The notes under the pieces: model-generated
Database searches by the model: none
What the model was told of the DNA's origin: nothing
The model's input: only the letters and a program-made list of their open reading frames with translations
NCBI RefSeq assembly: GCF_036669915.1
Contig: NC_089319.1
Coordinates: 3,205,082-3,269,081 of the forward strand
DNA length: 64,000 nt
Origin: Pocillopora verrucosa
Lineage: Eukaryota > Cnidaria > Anthozoa > Scleractinia > Pocilloporidae
Direction of reading: 5' to 3'
Program-made: the position numbers and the translations under genes
Shown: positions 15,201 through 62,483 of the stretch, in pieces
How the letters are laid out: each line of letters starts with the position of its first letter
How positions within the stretch are numbered: the stretch's first letter is position 1

Positions 15201-15272
15201 CTGAAGTGAGCAAGTACTTGTTTGTTGGCCTCCAGTAAACATTTCACATTTCGACAATTTGTTCTTGTAAGG

Positions 15273-16364
15273 ATGATTTATCCTGGTAACTCCAGCTACC
15301 CTAACGCAAGTCAATCGGTCGGCCCGCGTCCTGAACTGGAACCAAGATACGCCGTGACTCTTCGCCTTACCTTAAGTGCTATCATCTGCTCGATTGGAGT
15401 TGTGGGTAATATTTTGGTTGTCATCATCACAGGAGCAAACCACGGTGGTAAAACCGCTGTACACAAGTACATCCTCAACTTGGCTATCGCAGATATCAGT
15501 GTACTGGCAATTTGTTATCCGCTTACTCTTGTGAAAGCCGCGGATCCTGAAAACTGGCCGCTCGGAAGGTTTGTATGCAAGTTTGTGTACCCGTTTACGG
15601 ATATCTTCTACAGTGCTTCCATTGGCTCCATCGTTGCCATAGCAATGGACCGCCACACAGCAATCGTTCGTGGAATGACAGCGTACAGGTCGAGGACGAT
15701 TGCTAAATGGGTGATCCTGGCGATTTGGATTGCAAGCTTCATGAGTTCCGTGTTTCCAGTTTACTTGGTGATGGAATACATAGAGAACAATGGTACAGTT
15801 GACTGTACTCCAAAGTGGCCAAGTCACACCACTTTTGCCGCTTACGTGTTTTCTTTAACGATTTTTTGGTACGTTATACCGCTGTTCTTGATTCTCTGGG
15901 CATACCGGCAGATCGCGTGCAAAATTCGCGACAGCAAAATACTCCACCAAAAAATGCACAATATGGTTGGCTCTTACAAGAGAGAAAGGAAGAAGAAATT
16001 CGAAACTGCAAACACCAAAGCTCTTAAAATCCTCGTGCCGGTGGTGATTGTCTTTGCTATAACTATGTTTCCCTTTCATCTTTTTCAAGTTGTCAGAGTT
16101 TTCGTTGACGTGGGTCACATGAAATACATTTGGGTCGTGTACAACATATTTATTACTCTGATGCTGACAAACAGTGCTGCAAATCCGATTATTTACTCCC
16201 TTGTGAGCGAGGAGTTTCGGCAACAGTTCAAAAACATTTTGAACTTTAAATGTCAGCGTCTATGCCTCGAGCCGAGGAAAAAACATGATGCATCTATCAC
16301 ATATCGATATTCTCTTTCAGTAACTGCGCCTCCACCAAATCCTGACCGAGAGACAGATGTGTGA
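15273..16364 (+). CDS. Rhodopsin-family (class A) GPCR, neuropeptide-receptor-like, intronless
   Basis: A single exon encodes 363 aa. The frame is open further upstream, but the first ATG is at 15273; a good acceptor (TTTTTTCCAG) near 15190-15200 suggests a spliced 5' UTR. Seven hydrophobic segments are visible. Class A landmarks are GN in TM1 (N46), LNLAIAD in TM2 (D74), W95 in loop 1, C102 at the start of TM3 pairing with Cys in loop 2 (VDCTP), DRH (126-128) in place of DRY, and NPIIY in TM7 followed by an amphipathic helix 8 with Cys residues. NSS (N6) and NAS (N11) are N-terminal glycosylation sites. In TM6 the usual CWxP toggle reads TMFP, so the Trp is absent. Loop-1 Trp and overall layout resemble galanin/allatostatin/somatostatin-type peptide receptors; the ligand cannot be assigned. 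Confidence 0.92.
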   Translation: MIYPGNSSYPNASQSVGPRPELEPRYAVTLRLTLSAIICSIGVVGNILVVIITGANHGGKTAVHKYILNLAIADISVLAICYPLTLVKAADPENWPLGRFVCKFVYPFTDIFYSASIGSIVAIAMDRHTAIVRGMTAYRSRTIAKWVILAIWIASFMSSVFPVYLVMEYIENNGTVDCTPKWPSHTTFAAYVFSLTIFWYVIPLFLILWAYRQIACKIRDSKILHQKMHNMVGSYKRERKKKFETANTKALKILVPVVIVFAITMFPFHLFQVVRVFVDVGHMKYIWVVYNIFITLMLTNSAANPIIYSLVSEEFRQQFKNILNFKCQRLCLEPRKKHDASITYRYSLSVTAPPPNPDRETDV

Positions 16365-33000: not shown

Positions 33001-36000
33001 CAGGGGAGGGGACCCTTACTTTGTGACTGTCATAGCACATCTCTCCACTATGACAAACCATCCCATTAGAGAATCCTGTCTGATGATTTTTTTTTCAGTT
33101 GTAAAATAAGAACATCAATTAACCCTTTAAACCCAGAGAGTGATTAGCATCTAATTTCTCCCTACAAGATCACCCATGAATCATATATTAAGGTCATGAG
33201 AAAAAAGGAATTGGTCACTAGGGAAGGAACCTTTTGATTGGCAAACAAATTCTCCTGGTCAGCAGCTTAGGAAATGTATAAAAAACTGTGTGGAGAATAT
33301 GCATACTGATGTTAGGGTGTAAAGGGTTAAAAGCTTTGGCTTTGGCCAGTTATTGCTCCCTGTTTTCAAGCATGTGACACTCTTGTTTGTATTTACATTG
33401 ATATAATATCTTGACCATTTTGAATTGTTTTTGAGTTATGGGTATTTGGAGAAACCTTGCTATCAGTGCATGTAATTACTGTTATCTGATCTGCTGAAGT
33501 AAACAAGCATTTTGATTGGTTGTTACTTATGATTAAATGGAGGACAGACACATAGATAATCTCACCATTAGCAACATTTTGCTTTTTTTTATTTTAAATA
33601 AATAGATGTCATGTTGCCGTGCAACTGTTCAGTAGTAGATTACAGTAGTTGTCAAAATGTGTGAAGACCATCGGTGACATGTTCTGCTTCGCCTCTGGCA
33701 CCACATTTATGTTCTTACCACATTTCGAATGAACGCATAGAAGTTCTTTGTTGTTGATTGAAAGTCTTCTACTATCCTAATTTGACAGGTACATCAACAA
33801 GCCTTGGACGCGCTCCAAGCTTTGGTAAATCCTCAGTGTCCAGAGTGAGCACAACTCCTCTTAGTACAAAAAGCACCACGGGCAATGAAGAACAGCAAAC
33901 ATCGGTGGGTGAAGTCTTGTTGTGTCAGTGCTTTAATCAGTGATCACTTTGGTTGACTTAGAGAGCAGTTTTCAATTTACTGTCGAGTACTTAAACTCCA
34001 AAACAAAAGGAATCACAACGGCTAATCATTACAAAGGTTAACATCATTGTGAGCCAATGAGCACTCAATGTAAAAAATAGACAAACCATGAAAAAGGCAG
34101 GAAAATGCAGGTGACTAAGTCATGCTTGTTTTTTGTTTTGGGAGTTTTGTAGACCAATCACTGACCGAACAAATGCCAAACCAAACCATCTCAGATTACT
34201 TTCGATACTTAACTGCAAATTGCTTTAACAAACAAGAGAAATTATGGCAACCAAATGTACAATGAAATTCACCAATTTGACAACCTGTGATGGCTGGCTG
34301 TGTAACAAGCGGAAAGGGTTGGATTTCTGAGTGTTTTATGTCTAAGTTAAAGTGAGATAAACTGTTACATGAAGTAGCATGTGAAATTGTACAAATTTGT
34401 TTTTCATGGACAACTAATGGAGTGCATTAATACCTCAGCGTAATAGAAATATTCCTTTTCACTTAATCGACATGGAACTAAAATAGTGTGCTTATCAGAT
34501 AACCTAACAGACTTGTAGGAAATTAAACCCATGGGTCTGTTTTTATTTTTTTTGGTGAGAAGTAAACTTTTGAAAAATCTCTCAGATTTCTTCTGCTATC
34601 GAACAAATCCGTTCTGTTTTTTTGGTTAATTTTTTTCTCTATTCAGTTGCAGCTAGAGAAACTTAAAGACGAAAACAAACGCCTGAGGGAACAAAGCGTG
34701 TTATCCGTTAGGCAGAAGGATTCGACACATATTTTAGAGTTGGAACTTAAAACAAAAGTGAGCAGAATTAAAGAGTTAGAGAAGGAGCTCTCACAGTGCC
34801 GAGACTATCAGAAGGCACTGCTATTTCAGGAGAAAGAACTGCTTGAGGCCAGAACTAAAATGAACGATTTGAAACAACAAATGGAAGAGAAAGAGAAACT
34901 TCTTCAGCAGCACAAAGGCAAGCTGTCGATTCATGCTAAGGAACTCGCCGAGGCCAAAGCCGACTTGCAGGAAGCCAATAGTATTATTGGCATTCACAGG
35001 GCGAATATTGAATCGCTGAAAAATGAACTTACTTCTGTGAAAAATATCACAGGAAGTGGGAAGGAAAAACTGATTGTAACTGGCGAAGAACCCGAGAGTG
35101 ATCAAGTGTTTAGTTTGAAAACAGAGGCCAGTGGGAACGAAGGCAAGGATCTAGAATCTAAACTTTCAGCTCTTATGCAGAAACTAAAGCAAAACGAACG
35201 CGAGTTATTAGTGAAGACTAGAGAACTCGAGAAAGCGAACGAAAGTCGGTCGAAAGTGGCAAAGTACACTCGGTCTTTGTTGCAGGAATTGGAGTCGAAA
35301 CTGAGTAACAATGAGAGGAAGCTTTCAGAGACCGAAAATCAACTTGTAAACAAAAACGTAGAACTCGAATATGAAAAGGAAAGACGGCTTAAAGTTGAGG
35401 AAGAGAACAACAGATTGTTTTCAGAGCTTGAGTTGTTATCTGATGAAAGGAAAAAGGATGGGCTTTCGAAGGAAGTCGTCGAACTTTTAAAGAGAGCAAA
35501 AGAACGAGTCGCATCTGAAAATATTGTGCCAGTTAGAGAAATGTCTGTGGAAACTGGGCTAACGTCAGTCATTCCGAAAACTAAAGATGACAAGAAAAGA
35601 ACTAGTAATGGTGTCTCATACGTCGAGGAAATTGATAAATTAAAATCAGTTCTTGCTTCAGCGGAGAGTTCTTCGGATCAGAGTGATAGCGAGACGAGCT
35701 TTAGGTCGGCTAAGAAAGAAACTGATCGTCTTAAGGATCGTTTGAAAGTGCAACAAAGAGATTATGAAAGTTTACGAATCGAGAGTAGCAAAATTAAGGA
35801 AGATTTGAAAAAGCGGGACACTGAACTGGATTCCTTGCGCAAGGAGCTGAGAAAGTTGGAGGATAGAAATGCAGATGTAGTTGAGAAAAACAGAGAATTA
35901 GAAGAAAGGCTTCAAACTGTGGAAAGCGAACTTACAGAAAGTATGGAAAGGGAGATATTCCTTCAAACTGAGAATGAAACCGATGAAGGTGAAAGATGGG

Positions 36001-39000
36001 ATGTGAAAGAACGTATTGTGGGTTTGGAGGAGGAGGTGTCAATTTACAAAGACAAAATTGATGAACTGGAAACAAAATTAGTTGAGAAGGATTCCAAAAA
36101 TGTAAACGTAGAGAAGGATAGAAATCGTGTGCACGAATTAGAGCGTCTTTTGAAAATTAAAGAGGATGAACTGAAAGAAATAGAGAGGCGTAATTCTCGA
36201 AGAGAACGAGAGTTTAAGAAAGAGGAGGAAACAAAACGAGATGAAATGGAGATTGAATTAAGCCGAGAAAAGCTCCGACTTCAAGAACTTGAAGAGCAGT
36301 TCGGTCAGGTCCAAAACGCTTTGGATTCTGAACGAAATAAGTCGAAGGTAAAGGAAAATGAACTTGAAGAACTCAAGAAGACAACCAGTCTCATGGTGTA
36401 CAGAGAGGACGCAGAAAGACATATAGATGAGCTCGAATCGGAGTTGAAAGAAAAAGAAGATAAACTCTCTGAAAGAGAGTCTTCTCTGTCCATTGCTAGC
36501 GAGAGAATCGCCGAATGCGAAGAAAAATTGAGGAATTATGAATTAAAGGCTAAAGAGTTTGTGTCAAAGAATTCGGCTGATCTGGAAAAGAAAATTCGAG
36601 AACTACAAGAGGAACTGGAAGACAGCAGGGAAAGGTTGGCCGCAGCCGAAGAAAAACTGGAGGATTTCGAAGTGGAAGAAAAACTTCTCGCTGCTGAGCT
36701 TCACAAAAGTGAAAGGGAAGACAATGATAAGGTTGACGAGGTGAGGAAGAAGTTGACGGAGGCAGAGGAGAAAATTAAGAAGTACGAAGACTTTGCCAAG
36801 GACAAAAATTCTAAACTTATAGCGAGCGAGGAGAAGGTCATCGAACTTGCTGAAGAATTAGCGAGAAGGCTCGCCGTGGAACAAGAAACGGCTGAGTGGA
36901 TTGAAGGTGTTGAAAATAATCTTACTCAAAGAGAGAAAGAGCTTAATGTCACGCGAGAAAGTTTGGTAAATAAGGCCAAGGATTTAGACAAGGAAAAATA
37001 CAGCATTTTAGACGTTATGGAACTGTCTATGAGGTACATTAAAGAGTTAGAGCTGGCTGTAGGTGAGGAGAGAGAGAATGCCAAAGAACTCGAGCGACAA
37101 CTGGATGATGAAAGGGCACGTGTAACTCAAATGGTTCAAGAGATGAAGAGCGTCGAAAGTGAAGGAAATAAAAACCAAGACGCTCTGAATGACAACGCAA
37201 GCGTGGAAGAAAGGTTATCTTCTTGCGAGATAAGACGAGAACTAGAATCCACTCGAGTGAAGCAACTCCAGACAGAACTTGAAGACTCCAAGAGGAAATT
37301 CGCCGAAGAGCTGAGTTCGGAAAGGGACTCGCACGTAAATGAGATGAGGAAGTTAAATGAGGAGGCTTTGCAAGTCTCCGGAGCCGCTAATTCAGAAGCC
37401 GATGAGTTGAAATTGCGGCTGACTTCCCGTGTGATAACTCTACAGTCCGACATCAGCGAACTGAAGGCTGCGCATCATCAGGAGTTGGAAAAACTACGGG
37501 CTCAACACAAGAAGGAATTAGAGAACGCCAGACGGGAAGCCATCTTGGAGACCAGTGCTAGAGAAGTGATACGAGAAACTGATGAGGACATGGCGGCCAG
37601 AGTTAAGGAGGTGGAAGACGAGATGAAAGAAATGACCGAAAGGTAGAAACATTTTTAGTAGTTGTGTTTGTTTTGTTGAGAATACAAGGTCATTGTACGC
37701 TTTAGTGTCACTTGTTTTCACGTGTAGTGATAGTAATTGATTTTCTAGATATGAAAGTCAAATGGAGACACTTAAGAAGAGCCATTCTCGAGAGATGGAC
37801 AAGCTTAAGCGGAGCAGCGGAGATGGTGTGGATGGGCTACAGACAGAAGTGGTCCAACTACAGGTTGAGATGGAGAACATGAACCAGAAATACATGGAGG
37901 AAATTGAGAATCTTAAGGTTTGTTTTCCTAGCATTTTTCCTCGGCTCCACTCCGCCACGGCCACTGCCTTCGTGGTGGAGGCTATGCCAGGGCAGACAGT
38001 GAATATGTTGGCTGACTCCTCTGAAGTTAATCTTGATATAATAGTTATGGCATAAAACTGTAGCACAACATAATAAACTCATATCGCCATGTTTACGTCA
38101 GAAAGTTGTCCCAATTTCTTGTTAGTATTTGATTTTAAGAGTTTTTTTCAGAACTCATACCTTTTTAACTCTTCACTGGTATTGTTATTTACACGATTCC
38201 TCTTCTTTTTCTTTAGGTTCAACACGGAGAAGAACTAGAACAACTCAAACGCGACATGGCTGTTGTTCTGCAGGCGTCTTTAGGAGCAGCACCTTCCTCA
38301 GCCAAAGACGACTCCAATGTCCAGCTGCTCAAGAACAGAATTAATGAACTGGAGCAACAAACAGAAGAACTCAGCCGGAAGTACAACGAAGAACTCAAAG
38401 CTGAAAGGGTAGATTATTTTGTCAATATCTTTCGGGGTAAAGTTAGCTGCTAGCTTCCTTCAATTTCCCGGCTCATTTAACCTTACATTCTTCATCTCTT
38501 CGTTTACAGGAAAAACAACAGCGAGAAATTGAGCAAACGCGTAACGACATGATGACAGTGATCCAGGCAATCAGATCGGAAAAGTACGCCGACGAAGGTA
38601 GAGCAGCTTCTCCGCGCCATCTTGAAGACCTGCCTGAAGAATTGGCCAAGATGCAGGAAGAATACGAGGAAAAGATCGCTAAACTGCAGGAAGAACATGA
38701 AGAAGCCTTGAGGGAGGCGAAAGGATCGAAGACAGTTGTTTCAATGAATTCCATGAATGGAGAACAAGAGGTAATGTGACATGACTCTTACGCTTTGACT
38801 CCTAAGAGTGACTAGCATTCAATTTCTCCTTACAATATCACTCCAGAATCACTCTTTAAGGTCACGAGAATAAAGGAATTGATCACCAACTGAAGAAGCT
38901 CTTGATTGTTAAACAAATTCTCCTTGTGAGCACCTTAGAAAATAGACGGAGAAAGTATGGAGAATATACGTACTGATGTGTGGTGTAAATGCTTAAAAGA

Positions 39001-42000
39001 GTTTAGCTTGTTTTTTTCTCCAGGCGATGTCTTTACATCGTCCTATAGAAATGTTTTGCGAATTTATGAAATTATAATTCAGGGGATCTAAGCGAGTAGT
39101 TTACCGTTTACCGCTTCACTTTTTATAGTGAACAAAGTAGGTCAGCTATCAACTCAAATTTTTCACGCGAAAAGATCGTAGTTTATTTTAATTGTTGTAC
39201 TTTGTTTGTAGAATGATTCCCAGCTTAAAAAGAAAGTCAGGCAGTTAGAGGCGGAGTTGTTGTCCTGCAAGGAGGAATTTCAGAAGCAGCTGCAACAGAA
39301 GGACACCAAACACGATGAAGAAGTGAACTTGCTGAAGGCCGACATGTTGGTAGCTCTTCAAGTGGCTCGGAGTGGTAATTTGCCCCCAGCTGGAGCTAGT
39401 CAACCAGATTCCCAGACTTCTAGCAGCACCATCACTCACGGAGGAACAAAGCTCTCCTTAGAGGTTTGGTGCACTTGTTTCGTTTTTGATTATGACCGTG
39501 TGGCATTGATTTGAGAACTTGTCGTCCGGACCATCTTTAAAGTTAAGGAAAAAAGCTGTTTGCTCAAGAGTAGAAGTTAAGGAAATTGGTCTATGGGAAT
39601 TTTCCACCGAGCAAGAACGTTTCCTCTTAAATGGGATTTAAGCTCTGTCGGCCGTTTCCGTCCTGGTGGGTCGTACTTTCGCAAAATTTGCTGCTTGTAC
39701 CCTCCTTTCTTCGATTATCTCTTCCTTCTTTTTGTTTGCATATTGCCAGCTTTCGTCCAACCATCGTTTGCCGTCCCTCTTTGTCGCATTAGAAGTCTAC
39801 TTCCCAACCGTTATTTGTTCTTGTTAAGTCACGCGTTTCCTCTCCGAAAGAGATGGATGAGACAAGGTGTGTTGCGTGACAAAAACAAATAAGGACTGCG
39901 ACGGTGACTACTGTCACACTCGTTCGAAAGTAATGAGAATTCACGAAGTCTTATTTCATAAGCATCTTTTGAGTAATTTTATCGATTTCTTAACAGGAAG
40001 CTGTCGCGAAAATCACCAGTTTGGAAAAGACAATCGAAACCACCAAGAAACAAGCTAAGAAGGAAAAATCTGATTTGGAAAAAAGCTTGAAAAAATCCGA
40101 GGCTGCCACAATGTTTGGACTGAGACGAACCGAAGAGATGAGCATAAAGATTTACCAAATGCAGAAAGAAATGGAAATTATTGACCGCAAATATCAAAAG
40201 GAGATACAAATGTATAAGGACGCGTTTGAACGAGAGAAAGAGGAGAAATGCCAGCTGGGAGACTGGGAGACACTGTCCTCCGAGAACGACAGTCTGCGAC
40301 TGGAAATCGAAGAACTTGATTTGAAAATCGAAGAAATGGAAAATACACACCAGGCCGAGATCAATATGTATAAACAAAAGCTCGGCGAGGAGGAAATGCA
40401 AAGTATCGAGAGCTTAAGATTGAAAATCAAGAGCTTAGAGGATGTTATTGAAGAACAAAAGTTAGAGCATGAGAAAGAGTTGGAAGATTTGAAACTGGAA
40501 AGAGACGCATCCGTTCAGGAATTAAAAAGACGACACGAAAAGGAACTTGAGAATGTCAAAAGTGAACAGCGAGTGGTGAACGTAGGGAGTAGCCATACGC
40601 GTGCCACTTCTTTCGATTTGCAACAAAAAGATCTAAGAATTAAAGAGTTAGAGCTCAAAGTTGAGGAGCAGGAAACTCTTCTTGAGGTGAAAAGACGAAG
40701 ACACAAAGAAGAGATAAAAAGTCTTCGTCAGAGATTGGACGACGAAATGCAAAAGCACACCGAAGATGTTCGGTCGCACCGAACCAAGGTTCGGATGCTG
40801 GAACGACGCAAATCCGAACACTCGATCTCTTTCGGGTTAGTGGACGACGATTATAAACGGATGTACGATGAACAACGTTCGGAGAATATTAAGCTTAAGT
40901 TTACTGTTGAGAAACAGAAGAAGGAGTTGGACGATATGCGCACTGCTTTGGCAGCTAAAGAAGAGAAAGCAGCAGAGGTTACAGAGAGAAGAAAAGCGTT
41001 TGGTAAGGGGATTTCTGAAATTATGAATAGTGTGACATCGTGAAATCCAATGTATTTCCCTTTTCCTAACGCAACTTCTCTTTTCAATATTTTTATAGAC
41101 TTTTGCTGGAAATAGATCACTGTCTGAATACTTTTTTAATAGATCAATTTATTTATCGCTTACGTGAGAATACTTAAAAATTTAATGACCCATGCCAGGT
41201 TTTTTTATTTGGTATCAGCGACTTTGAAACGGCTTTAATCGTAACGGGCTGTTTGACCGTAGGGTGATTCGTAGCTGTTGTTGTCCTCATCACGCCGCAC
41301 ACTCACATTTATAGAGAGCGTGTTGCCTGACGAGGCAAAACAACTGCTGATTAAGGGGACTGCAGCTTGATAGCGATCATTCTAAATTTCTTCTTACGAT
41401 GGTTAGTATTGTGCCTTTCACATTTCTCTCCTCTTGTTCGTCATTCATTGTCTCTTTGCTTGATGGTCTATATTTAGATAACCAATCTGCTAGACAAGAT
41501 TCATTAGTGAGCATGAATTTTGACCTTGTCTCTTTCAGGAGAATCACGGCGCCCTGTTTCAGATTCCTTCCCATCGGGCTTTTCGTACAGCCGGACCACT
41601 CCAGCCCAGGACTCCTCCTCCCAACCCGGCAAAGTGCCTCTGAGAAAAGTATCTTCGGATAACAAGTCAGACTCAGATCCTGTGTGGAAGAGGGCGTCTG
41701 GGGGACCACTGTCAAGACAGGCGTCCGAGGGAGGGTTAGGAAAGCATGATGTTGGCAAGGGGAAAATATTTACAAGGCAACTCTCTAAAGGGGTGAGTGA
41801 GCAAAGTCAATTACTCGTGGAATAAATTTGTAGATAGTGAATTCAAGACAGGTTGACATTTGAGTCTGCGTTGTTTAGTTGTTCTGAATACGTAAATCCG
41901 CTCATTATTGTTATAATCAAAACTTGGAAAAGTGTTAACCACGTTATTCGTCGCTTTCATTTGAGTTTCAAACATTTAAGGGGACATTTCCTTGCTCTCT

Positions 42001-44146: not shown

Positions 44147-47100
44147 TCAAGTTCTTGGGGCATTGTTCGTCTTCTTTAGTTTCGGCACCCTCCACCCGTG
44201 AGATTTCAAGTAGTCCCTAACAGCTCGTGAAGTTATTTCCAGTGGTGGAAAGTATGGCCCAACTCTAGTCCGTTTCCACCAGAGTCCAGAACGTGCTTCT
44301 TTGCTCCCAATTCTTGTGAATTTATATAGGTAGCGTTCACCACGAATAACTCTAGCGAGGGAAGAAAAAACAAAAGAAAAGGAATTCAGCTTCATTTAGA
44401 CCCAAGGGTTGTACAGCCTGTGGTGGGTGACGCGCTCAGAAGGTTGGGCCATTAAGTGACAGACACGTTTTACAGTAAATCGAGTAGTCTGGGTCCAGAC
44501 TCGTCCCCAAACTCTCCCTAATTATTATTCGAAAGTAACGGAAGACAGAGCAGGTTGGTTGGGCCATAAGGCGACAGACACGTTTCAAAGTAAATCGATT
44601 AGTCTGGGTTTAGACTCGTCCCTTGTCCATCCGTAACCATTTTTCGAAAGTAACGGAAGACTGAGCAGAAATTACTTCATCGCAAAACTTGCACAGTGTG
44701 TTGTGTAGGACGCAAATAATTTAGACCTTCCCTCACGTTATGCGCATTTGTCCAATTCTTCGAAGAAGTGAGTGGGAGCGAGTCCGAACGTGAACAGTGA
44801 AGGCTCACGAATTGAACAGTCGACGAGAGGATGGGATGGGGAAAGCGACGAACGCCAATAGCTCGTTGGACCATTCTCTGCTGAACAAGTCCCACGCGTT
44901 TTCCAAATGCGCTAGTATGGGTTAGCGACAATGGTGACAATAATAGTACAACAAAACTAAACAACAAAAGAGCATCACTATGCAATACTTACAGTGGAGG
45001 TGTACCATTAGAGAATGGGTTGTGAGCTATCAATGAAGTGGCCTGTTCATCATTTACAAGAAGTTTAGCTGCCAGGTGTATCAGCCAAGGGTTGTACTGA
45101 AAGTTCTGAAAAACAGAATTAGATTTGCGTTTAGAGAAATACCATAAGCAGCCAATGAGAACCCCAAGTAAAAACAACCAAACTGCCCAAGTTTTGATTG
45201 GTTTTAGTTCTGCATCTGATTGGTTAAGGGAGTGGCGTGAATTTTCTAGACCAATCACAGGGCGAAGTAAATCTAAAACAAAAGCAAAAAAAAAAAAAAG
45301 GAAGTAAAGCCTGCACTGTAGCCAAGTGGCCCATCCAGGTGGAGCTCATTCCGGTTTTCAAGCAAGATACGCCAAGGAGTATTACTACTCCCCGCTGGAT
45401 GAGATGCTTCACTCTACCAGGTTATTCCAAGCATTTTACCAGGCTTTTCTCGCAGTTCTCTGATTCCCATTTGAAGGAAAAAAAACTGCTACCACTAAAT
45501 ATATAGCCTTGTCTTTTCCACTGTTCGGATCGTTGGCGGCGTCTTCGTATTTAGGCCTCTAACTTATATTATTTCTAGCAGGCGAGCCATTTCTAACACT
45601 AACCTGAAAAGCTGCAAACCACATGAGCCAGTCCAGTCTGTAGTGATAAGGTGAAATGAGACAAGGCCGCCTGCGGGGGTCACCTGGTTTGCATTTAAAC
45701 TGATATTCTTCCCAGATCCCGCCTTCTTCATCCGGTATTACTGTCAAATTTCTAGTACCTTGGAAGATCACTTCGGTTCTTTCTTTTGTTACACTAGGGA
45801 AAGGAAACACGATTTCATATATTACGAATCCAACACTCGCGCTGTAACCAAATTTCTAGGTTTGTGAAGAAACTAATTTGCTATTGAGTTTGTGTGTTTT
45901 GCTTCGCATACCCCTCCAGCCAATCAGATGTGAGCAAAATTCAGTTCAGTTTACAAGTCTACAAGTGAATTAACGAGAGGAAAAACCAAAGAGTGGAAAG
46001 TCGAATACAATCAGAGCCCGTGTGGATGAATCAGGGCGTTGGCAAAGCGTAGAAACAAACCTCTGTGATCCTTACACTGGACTGGTTTTGACCTTTTAAG
46101 AGCAAATTTGTTTACATTGCCGAATTGATAAAAAAGTTGGAGATTGACATAAGATACATGTCTGTAAGACAAAAATCGAGAGCTATGAAATTTGAAAGCC
46201 CGCCAGTTCTACGCTTGAGACAAAACGAATTGAATGCAGTGAACAATACCTGGCTTACAAGGTTTTGAATTTTGTGTTACTTAAAGTACCTTCCAAAGGC
46301 GCCATAAGTGTTCACAATCCTGAAAGAGTCGAACGATGTGTTCATGGCTTGTCGAGAGGACAGAAGATTCTGCACCACAGGGATACTAAGATAAGCTAAC
46401 ACGACTCCAAGCATGAGCTCAAACACACGACGAACACAAAGACCTACAAACAAAGACAAGCCGCAAAGAAACAAATAAACAAACAATTGATTCGTACCAC
46501 GTACAACAAATTTTTCACACATTTTTTCAAATGTTTGCTCTTATAGACACACTGTATATTTTGACTTTCCAACAGCAGACGAGAGAGACTGATTTGCCGA
46601 GTAAGCTTTTTAATAAATTCGATTGAGTGTCCAAAGTAATTCTGGATTGCGTCGTTTTTGCTTTATCTCGCCCTGTGATTGGTCCAGAAAACTCGCCTAA
46701 CTCTCTCAACCAATCACGGCTTGGTCGCCGACGTTTTCCCGGGCTTTAGGAAGTTTGACCGGTTTTACTTTGAGTTCTCATTGGCTGCCTATGGTATTCC
46801 TTCCTTCTGATTGGCCAATTAGACTACGTTGATTTCGTTAGCGCTCTTCAGCTACTATCTCATGTAAAATACACCGATTATTTCAAGACTGCCTTGACCT
46901 GTACATACCCCAAGTGGGTTTTGACGCAGTTGCACCAGTCTTTTGGAGATGCTGTATTCTAATCACTTCTCTCTTGGCTGATGATGAAGAGAACAAGAAA
47001 GCCAGGCTTTTGTCATCAAAGCACAGGAGACTGGGAAGAATGGTCAGCCAGTTTAGGAAACTCAGGTTGCCACTGATGATCAAAATAACCTAGCTTAACA

Positions 47101-59917: not shown

Positions 59918-61573
59918 ATGGTTTTAAAGTTTCTTCTCCTTTACTTGTTTCTCCTAGATTTCCAGGTAATCGAAGTTATGAATTAAGACGTTTACTAAAC
60001 CAAAAAATATCAAATTTTCGCGACAGTCTTGCGAAAAAAGGAGCTAATTGGGCGACATCAAAGTATAATTTTGTTTGATTCAAACATAATCTTTCGTCCA
60101 AAGCTATGAATGTTTTTGTTCTGTCCTTAGGTGCAATTAAGTCAGTTTTGTGCAATTTTTTTTTTATCTAAAAGAAGAAACTTGGTATGATTAGTTGAAG
60201 GTAATAGTTAAAATTTGAGCTGAAATGAATTATTAATTTGATCGGTGAAACGAAAGACGAAATCTATCTTTTGTGGTTTTTGATAATGAAGGAAGAAGCC
60301 ATTTTCTTTTTCCATCATTGCAGGAGGGTTTTTTTTACTTCTGCGTTATTAGTGTCATGAATCAAACTTTTTAATTGGGGTCACATTTACCACAAACCCT
60401 CTTTTTAGTGCTACATCTTCGTGAAAAATCTCTACAAAATCTAGGCCAACAAATTTTTACATCATTCCTTCAACAAATATGAGGTGTGTGCAAAGTATAA
60501 GCAAAGCATACATCAAGTTTGTATATCATAGCGTAATAATATAATTTACAGCGCGTAGATTCAACTAGATCACTAAACTTCGAATCCAAAGACAGAATGA
60601 GGTAGATGCGATTTGTTTCGGCAGTTGTTTTAAGTCAAGCAAAATTTCTCATTGTCTAGTTTCATTTTCCTAAGAATGTTATCGTGGCCTGTGTTGCGGC
60701 TGTTTCTGCAGGCAACCGCTACACGTCTATCGCTAGCTTTCTAACTCGCCTTTTTTTCTTTTTTTTTACCAGGATCCTGGAACGCACTAATCTATTATTT
60801 TAACACTGTATCTTGTCTTTTGTGTCACAGTAAAATATTTTATTCGTTTTCAGGCTCAATCATGCTTTGCACAAAACGACGTGTTTCTTCCATCAGCCAA
60901 GGTGAAGACGTTGGAACCCGAGATCACGACCTCGACTCCTCTGCCCGTGACCGAGAGGAACCTGTGGGGAATAAGAATGTGGCAGGTGGCGGGATTAGCC
61001 TTCCTGTCCACCGTAGTGCTTGGTGAGTGTCTACTGATAACAGCGTCATCCTAAACTGTAAAACGGCTTCTATTGGGAAGACACCGAGGCCAATTTACCT
61101 CAACAAATGAGTTCATACAACCAAATTATCCTGTAATAACCCTCACTGACGCAGCGCCAGAGTTTCGTTAGAAACCTACCCATGGGGACTGGGGATAGGG
61201 CTCGTCCTCGTCTCACTGGTTTTTAACTAAGCTTATGCGTTTGATTTTAGTCATATTTTGTTGCTGCCTCTGTGACTGTCGTATCCCTAAGACTACTTAT
61301 GACAAAGAGGAAAAGCCACAAGAAGACAGTGACTGCAGTGACATTGAACCAGCGGTTACCATCCGTCAAGCACCTGTGGTGACACAAAAGCAAGAGCCTG
61401 AAGGCGAGAAAATGCTGGTTAACGGTTCCTCTCCCCAGGAACGTCACAGGGGCTCCAGAAAACACGAGATAGGAAAAGCAAATTCTGCTTTCGAGAACGA
61501 CGGCGAAAATTCTGCTCTGTATAATGAAAACTGGATAGGAAAGCCGCGTATTTCATTCAGCCGGCAGCCCTAA
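59918..61573 (+). CDS. TMIE: TMIE homologue: small single-pass membrane protein (3 exons, complete)
   Basis: Exons 59918-59965, 60854-61022 and 61251-61573 give 540 nt and 179 aa. The first exon encodes a signal peptide (MVLKFLLLYLFLLDFQ). A short Thr/Pro-rich ectodomain follows, then the membrane segment (about 58-80). The core WGIRMWQVAG (54-63) followed by CCCLCDCRIPKT (76-87) matches vertebrate TMIE (WDMRLWHVVG ... LCCVFNCRVPRT) in order and spacing: W54, R57, W59, V61, G63, C77, C82, R83, P85 and T87 are shared. The tail is acidic and polar, without the Lys-rich run of mammalian TMIE. TMIE is an obligate partner of TMC channels in hair-cell and nematode touch mechanotransduction. The Cys-rich inner membrane edge suggests palmitoylation. 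It is divergent from TSEN54. Confidence 0.82.
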
Positions 61574-62483
61574 AACATATTACGGTGTTGATATAAACTG
61601 AGGAGTGCACAGAGCTAAAGAAAAGCACTAACGTCCCAATTAAGACAACGCATAACTTTATTTTAATGGAGATGACTTACTAATCTTACGGACAAGTTCA
61701 AGTCCGTTATACAATTACTCCCATAGCTTTCTCAAGAATAGTTTAATCACAGTATACTGCGACTAATATCAGTTGTAGAGGTAAAATTTAGGTTTCAACG
61801 ACAAATGAAGCGGAAACATACCCGCATACATTCGTCATCTCTTCCGAAGAAATCCTCGACACTTTTCTATACTAAGTGGTCCTTTATAGCAGCCATCTCT
61901 ATTCTAAAAAGTTTCTACCTTTTGCACAAATATTACAAATGTCATACTGCAGTTTGCACGCAACCTCAGGTGACGTTCCATTACCATAAAATAAAAATAT
62001 TTCCTTCCAAAAAAGTGGTACTCGATATCAAGTTATATTCTCAACATTCAATAAAAGTTTTTACTACGATCAAGAAAAACAGAATGTCACATGTATCTCT
62101 AAATACTTCATGCAATCGATCTGTCATTAAATCGTATAAAAATTATCGTACAGGTATTCACACCTGATTGTCATAAATAATTAAATAATTTAGATTAAAA
62201 AATATAGATGCTTCCGCTAACTTTCAATATAAAACAATCAAGATCTTTTTGATAAAAACGCTCTATGCGTTAGCCGATAGATCTATCTATCTACATGTTC
62301 AAAAGACTCTAAATAGCCTTAAAAAGTAGGCATAAATGATTAAGTAACCCTTTTCGGCTTTCGTATTAACAAGTTTTAAAATTTTTCGCTGCAAACGTGT
62401 ATTGCAAAAGTTTTCCCGCAAAGTGATACATCTTAAAGCTTCTCAGAAAAGTCAGGCGAAGAGGATGACGTCACTGTCTTATT
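61574..62483. other. Convergent spacer after the TMIE-like gene
   Basis: AT-rich 3' UTR-like sequence with several AATAAA variants (for example AATAAA at 62050-62055). An open frame at 61805-62167 has no recognisable similarity and looks like chance. Confidence 0.45.

Follow-up and report, generated by a model that had tools for sequence, protein, structure and literature searches.

A probable TMIE orthologue in a coral genome, with residues matching the TMC contacts of worm TMIE

The three-exon gene at positions 59918 to 61573 of the window, by which we mean the whole 64,000-nucleotide stretch of coral DNA analyzed here, is with high probability a cnidarian (anthozoan) orthologue of TMIE, a single-pass protein that most likely acts as a peripheral TMC subunit and couples membrane tension to the channel pore. 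TMIE is a small membrane protein employed by channels for touch and sound in worms and vertebrates. It has been placed in TMC complexes of the worm (PMC9605866, PMC10895266) and in vertebrate hair cells (PMC10973136, PMC8256367), and the coral gene would add to this established family a member from a lineage that branched early among animals. An orthologue in an anthozoan, with contact residues and an intron position both retained, would trace the pairing of TMC and TMIE back to the cnidarian-bilaterian ancestor or earlier.

The exons lie on the forward strand and join in frame to encode 179 amino acids. Exon 1 (59918 to 59965) supplies the ATG and, in 16 codons that lead in frame to a GT donor, most of a signal-peptide-like stretch. 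Intron 1 (59966 to 60853) is in phase 0, with gt and ag at its ends, and is followed by exon 2 (60854 to 61022), which encodes a short ectodomain, the motif W54-x2-R57-x-W59 and the outer half of the membrane helix. Intron 2 (61023 to 61250) is a phase 1, GT-AG intron that interrupts the helix at codon 73, and exon 3 (61251 to 61573) encodes the inner half of the helix, the cysteines C76, C77, C78, C80 and C82, an elbow with the sequence R83-I-P-K86-T and a cytoplasmic tail that ends at a TAA stop codon. Positions -3 and +4 relative to the start codon are A and G, and the codon is preceded, two codons upstream, by an in-frame TGA; candidate poly(A) signals, AATAAA motifs recognized from the sequence alone, begin at 61990 and 62050 (61990 to 62055). 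These features are consistent with an ordinary gene. Hydrophobic windows of 19 residues exceed 1.3 only in residues 1-21 and 55-88, corresponding to a predicted signal-like start and to one hydrophobic helix at approximately residues 60-80. The gene structure proposed in the initial annotation, three exons encoding a single-pass protein with a signal-like start, therefore holds as a model with in-frame exons and GT-AG introns, in which splicing and signal cleavage are predicted.

The same annotation pointed to a TMIE core with matching spacing and to five cysteines within residues 76-82, and both are present: the core reads W54-x2-R57-x-W59 followed by C77-C78-x4-R83-I-P-K-T, and the cysteine cluster is as described. 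When the window was read in all six frames, the inner motif C..CR[IV]P[RK]T occurred in this gene only. The description of the tail as acidic and free of poly-lysine was accurate in part. The longest run of lysines is a single residue, and residues 88-106 are strongly acidic (8 acidic, 2 basic); overall, however, residues 83-179 contain 17 acidic and 15 basic residues, so that the tail as a whole is only weakly acidic and close to neutral.

Assignment to the TMIE family rests in the first place on the Pfam profile PF16038, which matches residues 52-91 of the coral protein with 36.8 bits (E = 3.4e-9) against a gathering cut-off of 27 bits. Worm TMIE, as present in solved TMC complexes (7usw_D), is the top sequence match in the PDB at E = 0.083, a value that is not significant alone; the other nine PDB matches listed are flavivirus envelope proteins aligned to the tail (E between 0.2 and 1.5), which we take as chance. 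Coral and worm TMIE can be aligned without gaps over 35 residues, of which 10 are identical, for a BLOSUM62 score of 65. When the alignment was shuffled 100,000 times, with shuffling confined within the outer, membrane and inner blocks so that the composition of each was preserved, the mean score was -11 (standard deviation 14) and no shuffle reached 65.

These results bear on the possibility that the gene belongs to some other single-pass family with a cysteine-rich inner boundary, such as FAM163, and resembles TMIE in composition only. FAM163 (PF15069) is the sole other Pfam family among the matches listed for the protein, with a weak similarity over residues 66-143 (E = 0.068), but its 14 bits fall far under the family cut-off of 28.3. 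Composition, moreover, is what the block shuffles hold constant, and it leaves unexplained both the presence of W-R-W and RIPKT at TMIE spacing and an intron position shared with human TMIE (see below). We consider this explanation highly improbable and retain the assignment to TMIE.

The intron evidence comes from splice mutations in human TMIE. Two of these, c.211+3 and c.212-2, affect intron 2 (PMC8256367, Table 1), and their names place that intron after the first base of codon 71, in phase 1. Human, worm and coral TMIE share one spacing of the equated residues, which makes coral codon 73 the counterpart of human codon 71, and it is after the first base of codon 73 that coral intron 2 is found, in the same codon and the same phase. 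Coincidence by chance at one given intron position among the 105 in the aligned block is expected at a rate of about 1/100. Human intron 1 appears to be in phase 0 after c.93, a less secure reading that derives from a mutation name (PMC8256367), and coral intron 1 is in phase 0 as well. As judged from the genomic sequence, the shared position of intron 2 is an independent sign of orthology, and it also supports the exon joins on which the predicted protein depends. With the Pfam match, worm TMIE at the head of the PDB matches, the conserved contact residues discussed below and an intron in common with human TMIE, the original proposal of a TMIE homologue is upheld.

Structural work on the worm complexes gives specific meaning to the residues that are conserved. 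In worm TMIE, R23 and W25 form outer contacts with TMC, C43 and C44 are palmitoylated and reach TM6 and TM8 of TMC, and R49 and R52 in the elbow form hydrogen bonds to TM6 and TM8 (PMC9605866, PMC10895266). In the gap-free alignment these six residues correspond to R57, W59, C77, C78, R83 and K86 of the coral protein, so that five of the six are identical and the sixth, R52, is replaced conservatively by lysine. Human R81 and R84 are the counterparts of worm R49 and R52 and are deafness sites (PMC9605866, PMC10895266), and human W57 has been equated with worm W25 together with this pair (PMC9605866); in the product of the human deafness gene (DFNB6), W57, R81 and R84 thus line up with coral W59, R83 and K86. 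The coral protein shares with worm TMIE a single helix, outer R and W contacts, two cysteines that are palmitoylated in the worm and a RIP[RK]T elbow. It differs from worm TMIE in having five cysteines at the inner boundary, compared with two in the aligned worm stretch, in carrying K86 in place of R52, and in its length (179 versus 117 residues). Human TMIE has been drawn with two membrane segments (PMC8256367), where the worm structures show just one helix, and it has four exons, whereas the coral model has three coding exons and lacks a counterpart of the human fourth exon.

By analogy with the worm complex, we propose that coral TMIE occupies the periphery of a TMC dimer. Following removal of the signal peptide, the N-terminus would lie outside the cell, and R57 and W59 would be positioned at the outer membrane face, where they could contact TMC. 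At the inner face, C77 and C78, which lie within the five-cysteine cluster, are probably palmitoylated, and their palmitates might reach the pore helices. The R83-I-P-K86-T elbow would form bonds with TM6 and TM8 in a TMC1/2/3-type channel, as in the worm structures, and membrane tension could then be passed to the TMC pore through both protein contacts and lipids.

The changed tail and the lysine at the R52 position raise the possibility that this is a TMIE homologue in which the function as a TMC accessory has been lost or changed, for example a trafficking or lipid-binding protein that works with other channels. The worm tail is positively charged (PMC9605866) and human TMIE has lysine clusters at residues 123-131 and 150-154 (PMC8256367), whereas the coral tail has neither of these clusters and no lysine runs; in addition, the position at which the coral protein has lysine for worm R52 is a deafness site, R84, in human. 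Set against these differences are the other five named contact or palmitoylation positions, all of which are kept, and the presence in the same genome of a gene close to worm TMC-2. On balance we regard a lost or altered accessory function as unlikely, and a TMC subunit remains the reading we favor.

The basic tail of vertebrate TMIE binds lipids. We regard a positively charged tail as common in the family but not as defining it, because the Pfam match sits in the helix-elbow core. The missing lysine-rich tail suggests that a basic tail was either not ancestral or has been lost in the coral, and the altered tail is a natural experiment for asking which part of TMIE gating depends on.

For the TMC channel itself, profile searches of the genome (353 Mb in 52 contigs) identified ten exon matches, each of which exceeded the cut-off; they represent at least six TMC genes. 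One of these, at 21.906-21.912 Mb on contig C4, is 48.6% identical to worm TMC-2 (68/140) over the one segment that was shared; the other five are 24-31% identical over the same segment, which is incomplete in the genes designated C8a and C2. A TMC1/2/3 clade that predates Eumetazoa has been derived (PMC7003098), and by its sequence the C4 gene would fit within that clade. Three TMC-family genes lie on the contig that carries TMIE (C8), one at C8:3444614-3445651, 178 kb from TMIE, and two as a tandem pair at 4989-5020 kb; the gene close to worm TMC-2 is not among them. The 178 kb linkage looked suggestive, but we do not rely on it, since that TMC is 31% identical to worm TMC-2 over an incomplete segment, compared with 48.6% for the gene on C4. 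Another TMC gene, at C1:7426390-7426713 on the reverse strand, is carried by a single open frame (764 codons), in contrast to its many-exon TMC relatives.

Other candidate partners were sought in the same genome. The LHFPL family gave eight matches in four loci. A search with an approximate CIB2 query returned 13 matches. Ten of them are at 27-38% identity, a level expected of EF-hand proteins, and the remaining three are short and 45-54% identical; CIB-like genes are likely to be present. For the membrane-adjacent domain of PCDH15, the one genome match reached 20.4 bits against a cut-off of 27, in a type of search that is weak for intron-split genes and that, at the same loose threshold, also produced a match in a control archaeon.

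The initial annotation made its evolutionary argument conditional on a cnidarian host, and the genome itself speaks to this point. GFP-family profiles gave 74 exon matches on contig C1, in two dense clusters at 0.67-0.88 Mb and 28.36-28.79 Mb. One translated exon is nearest to amFP486 among PDB sequences, and the best 60 of its 309 PDB matches are GFP-like fluorescent proteins, fusions or engineered forms. These fluorescent proteins are anthozoan in origin, which makes an anthozoan host very probable.

Coral TMIE is a candidate mechanotransduction subunit for cnidocytes and for anthozoan hair-bundle cells, in either of which it may act as a partner of TMC. A broader scenario, which we advance tentatively and hold to be possible rather than probable, is that a TMC1/2/3-type pore and a lipid-anchored TMIE handle were assembled before the cnidarian-bilaterian split and still serve as the coral mechanotransducer in cnidocytes or hair-bundle cells, with the five inner-leaflet cysteines as the main anchor and without a lysine-rich tail. 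In the literature on TMIE outside Bilateria that we surveyed, which included few subscription papers and, for the articles cited here, excerpts of the text, we found no published description of a cnidarian TMIE; within those excerpts, TMIE is mentioned in the reference list of PMC7003098, and in PMC10973136 with regard to vertebrates or in references. An earlier entry for the coral gene in a sequence database is quite possible.

Searching the whole genome at the protein level placed TMIE at two sites only. A segment of approximately 30 kb that includes the TMIE gene, and of which the window holds positions 41787 to 64000 (forward strand), is found again at a distance of 1.05 Mb on this contig, at C8:4294737-4324512, with about 97% identity (96-98%). 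The TMIE gene in this second copy is intact: exon 2 is the same in both, and of five codon differences two are silent and three alter amino acids of the tail. A 100-N scaffold gap immediately precedes the second copy. This points to an unmerged haplotype more than to a true paralogue; at the right end of the copy, no gap was present within the stretch examined (to 4330000). We consider that the second copy may be an unmerged haplotype or, alternatively, the product of a recent segmental duplication. Divergence between the copies is in the direction expected under purifying selection, 0.93% at coding sites (5/540) versus 1.94% at non-coding sites (41/2108), and the difference is not significant (Fisher p = 0.14).

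Scanning the whole genome with PF16038 gave no match at the TMIE gene itself and none over the cut-off, presumably since the domain is interrupted by intron 2. Below the cut-off, one TMIE-like place at C4:2227073 (20.9 bits) was rejected for its lack of both the W-R-W core and RIPKT, and the profile also scored 15.3 bits at C2:15312840.

Other genes can be recognized elsewhere in the window. A rhodopsin-family receptor is encoded on the forward strand at 15210 to 16361 in a single open frame of 384 codons (PF00001, 176.8 bits), and exons of a lipase maturation factor lie on the reverse strand at 44992 to 45855 (PF25179, 77.6 bits, with the next exon at 28.8 bits, below the cut-off). Between these, positions 34566 to 41040 contain long coiled-coil frames of 1026 and 349 codons with weak, below-cut-off Pfam matches, one of which, near the end, is to a PRKG1-interacting domain; as a guess, they possibly encode a relative of myosin-phosphatase or Rho-interacting proteins.
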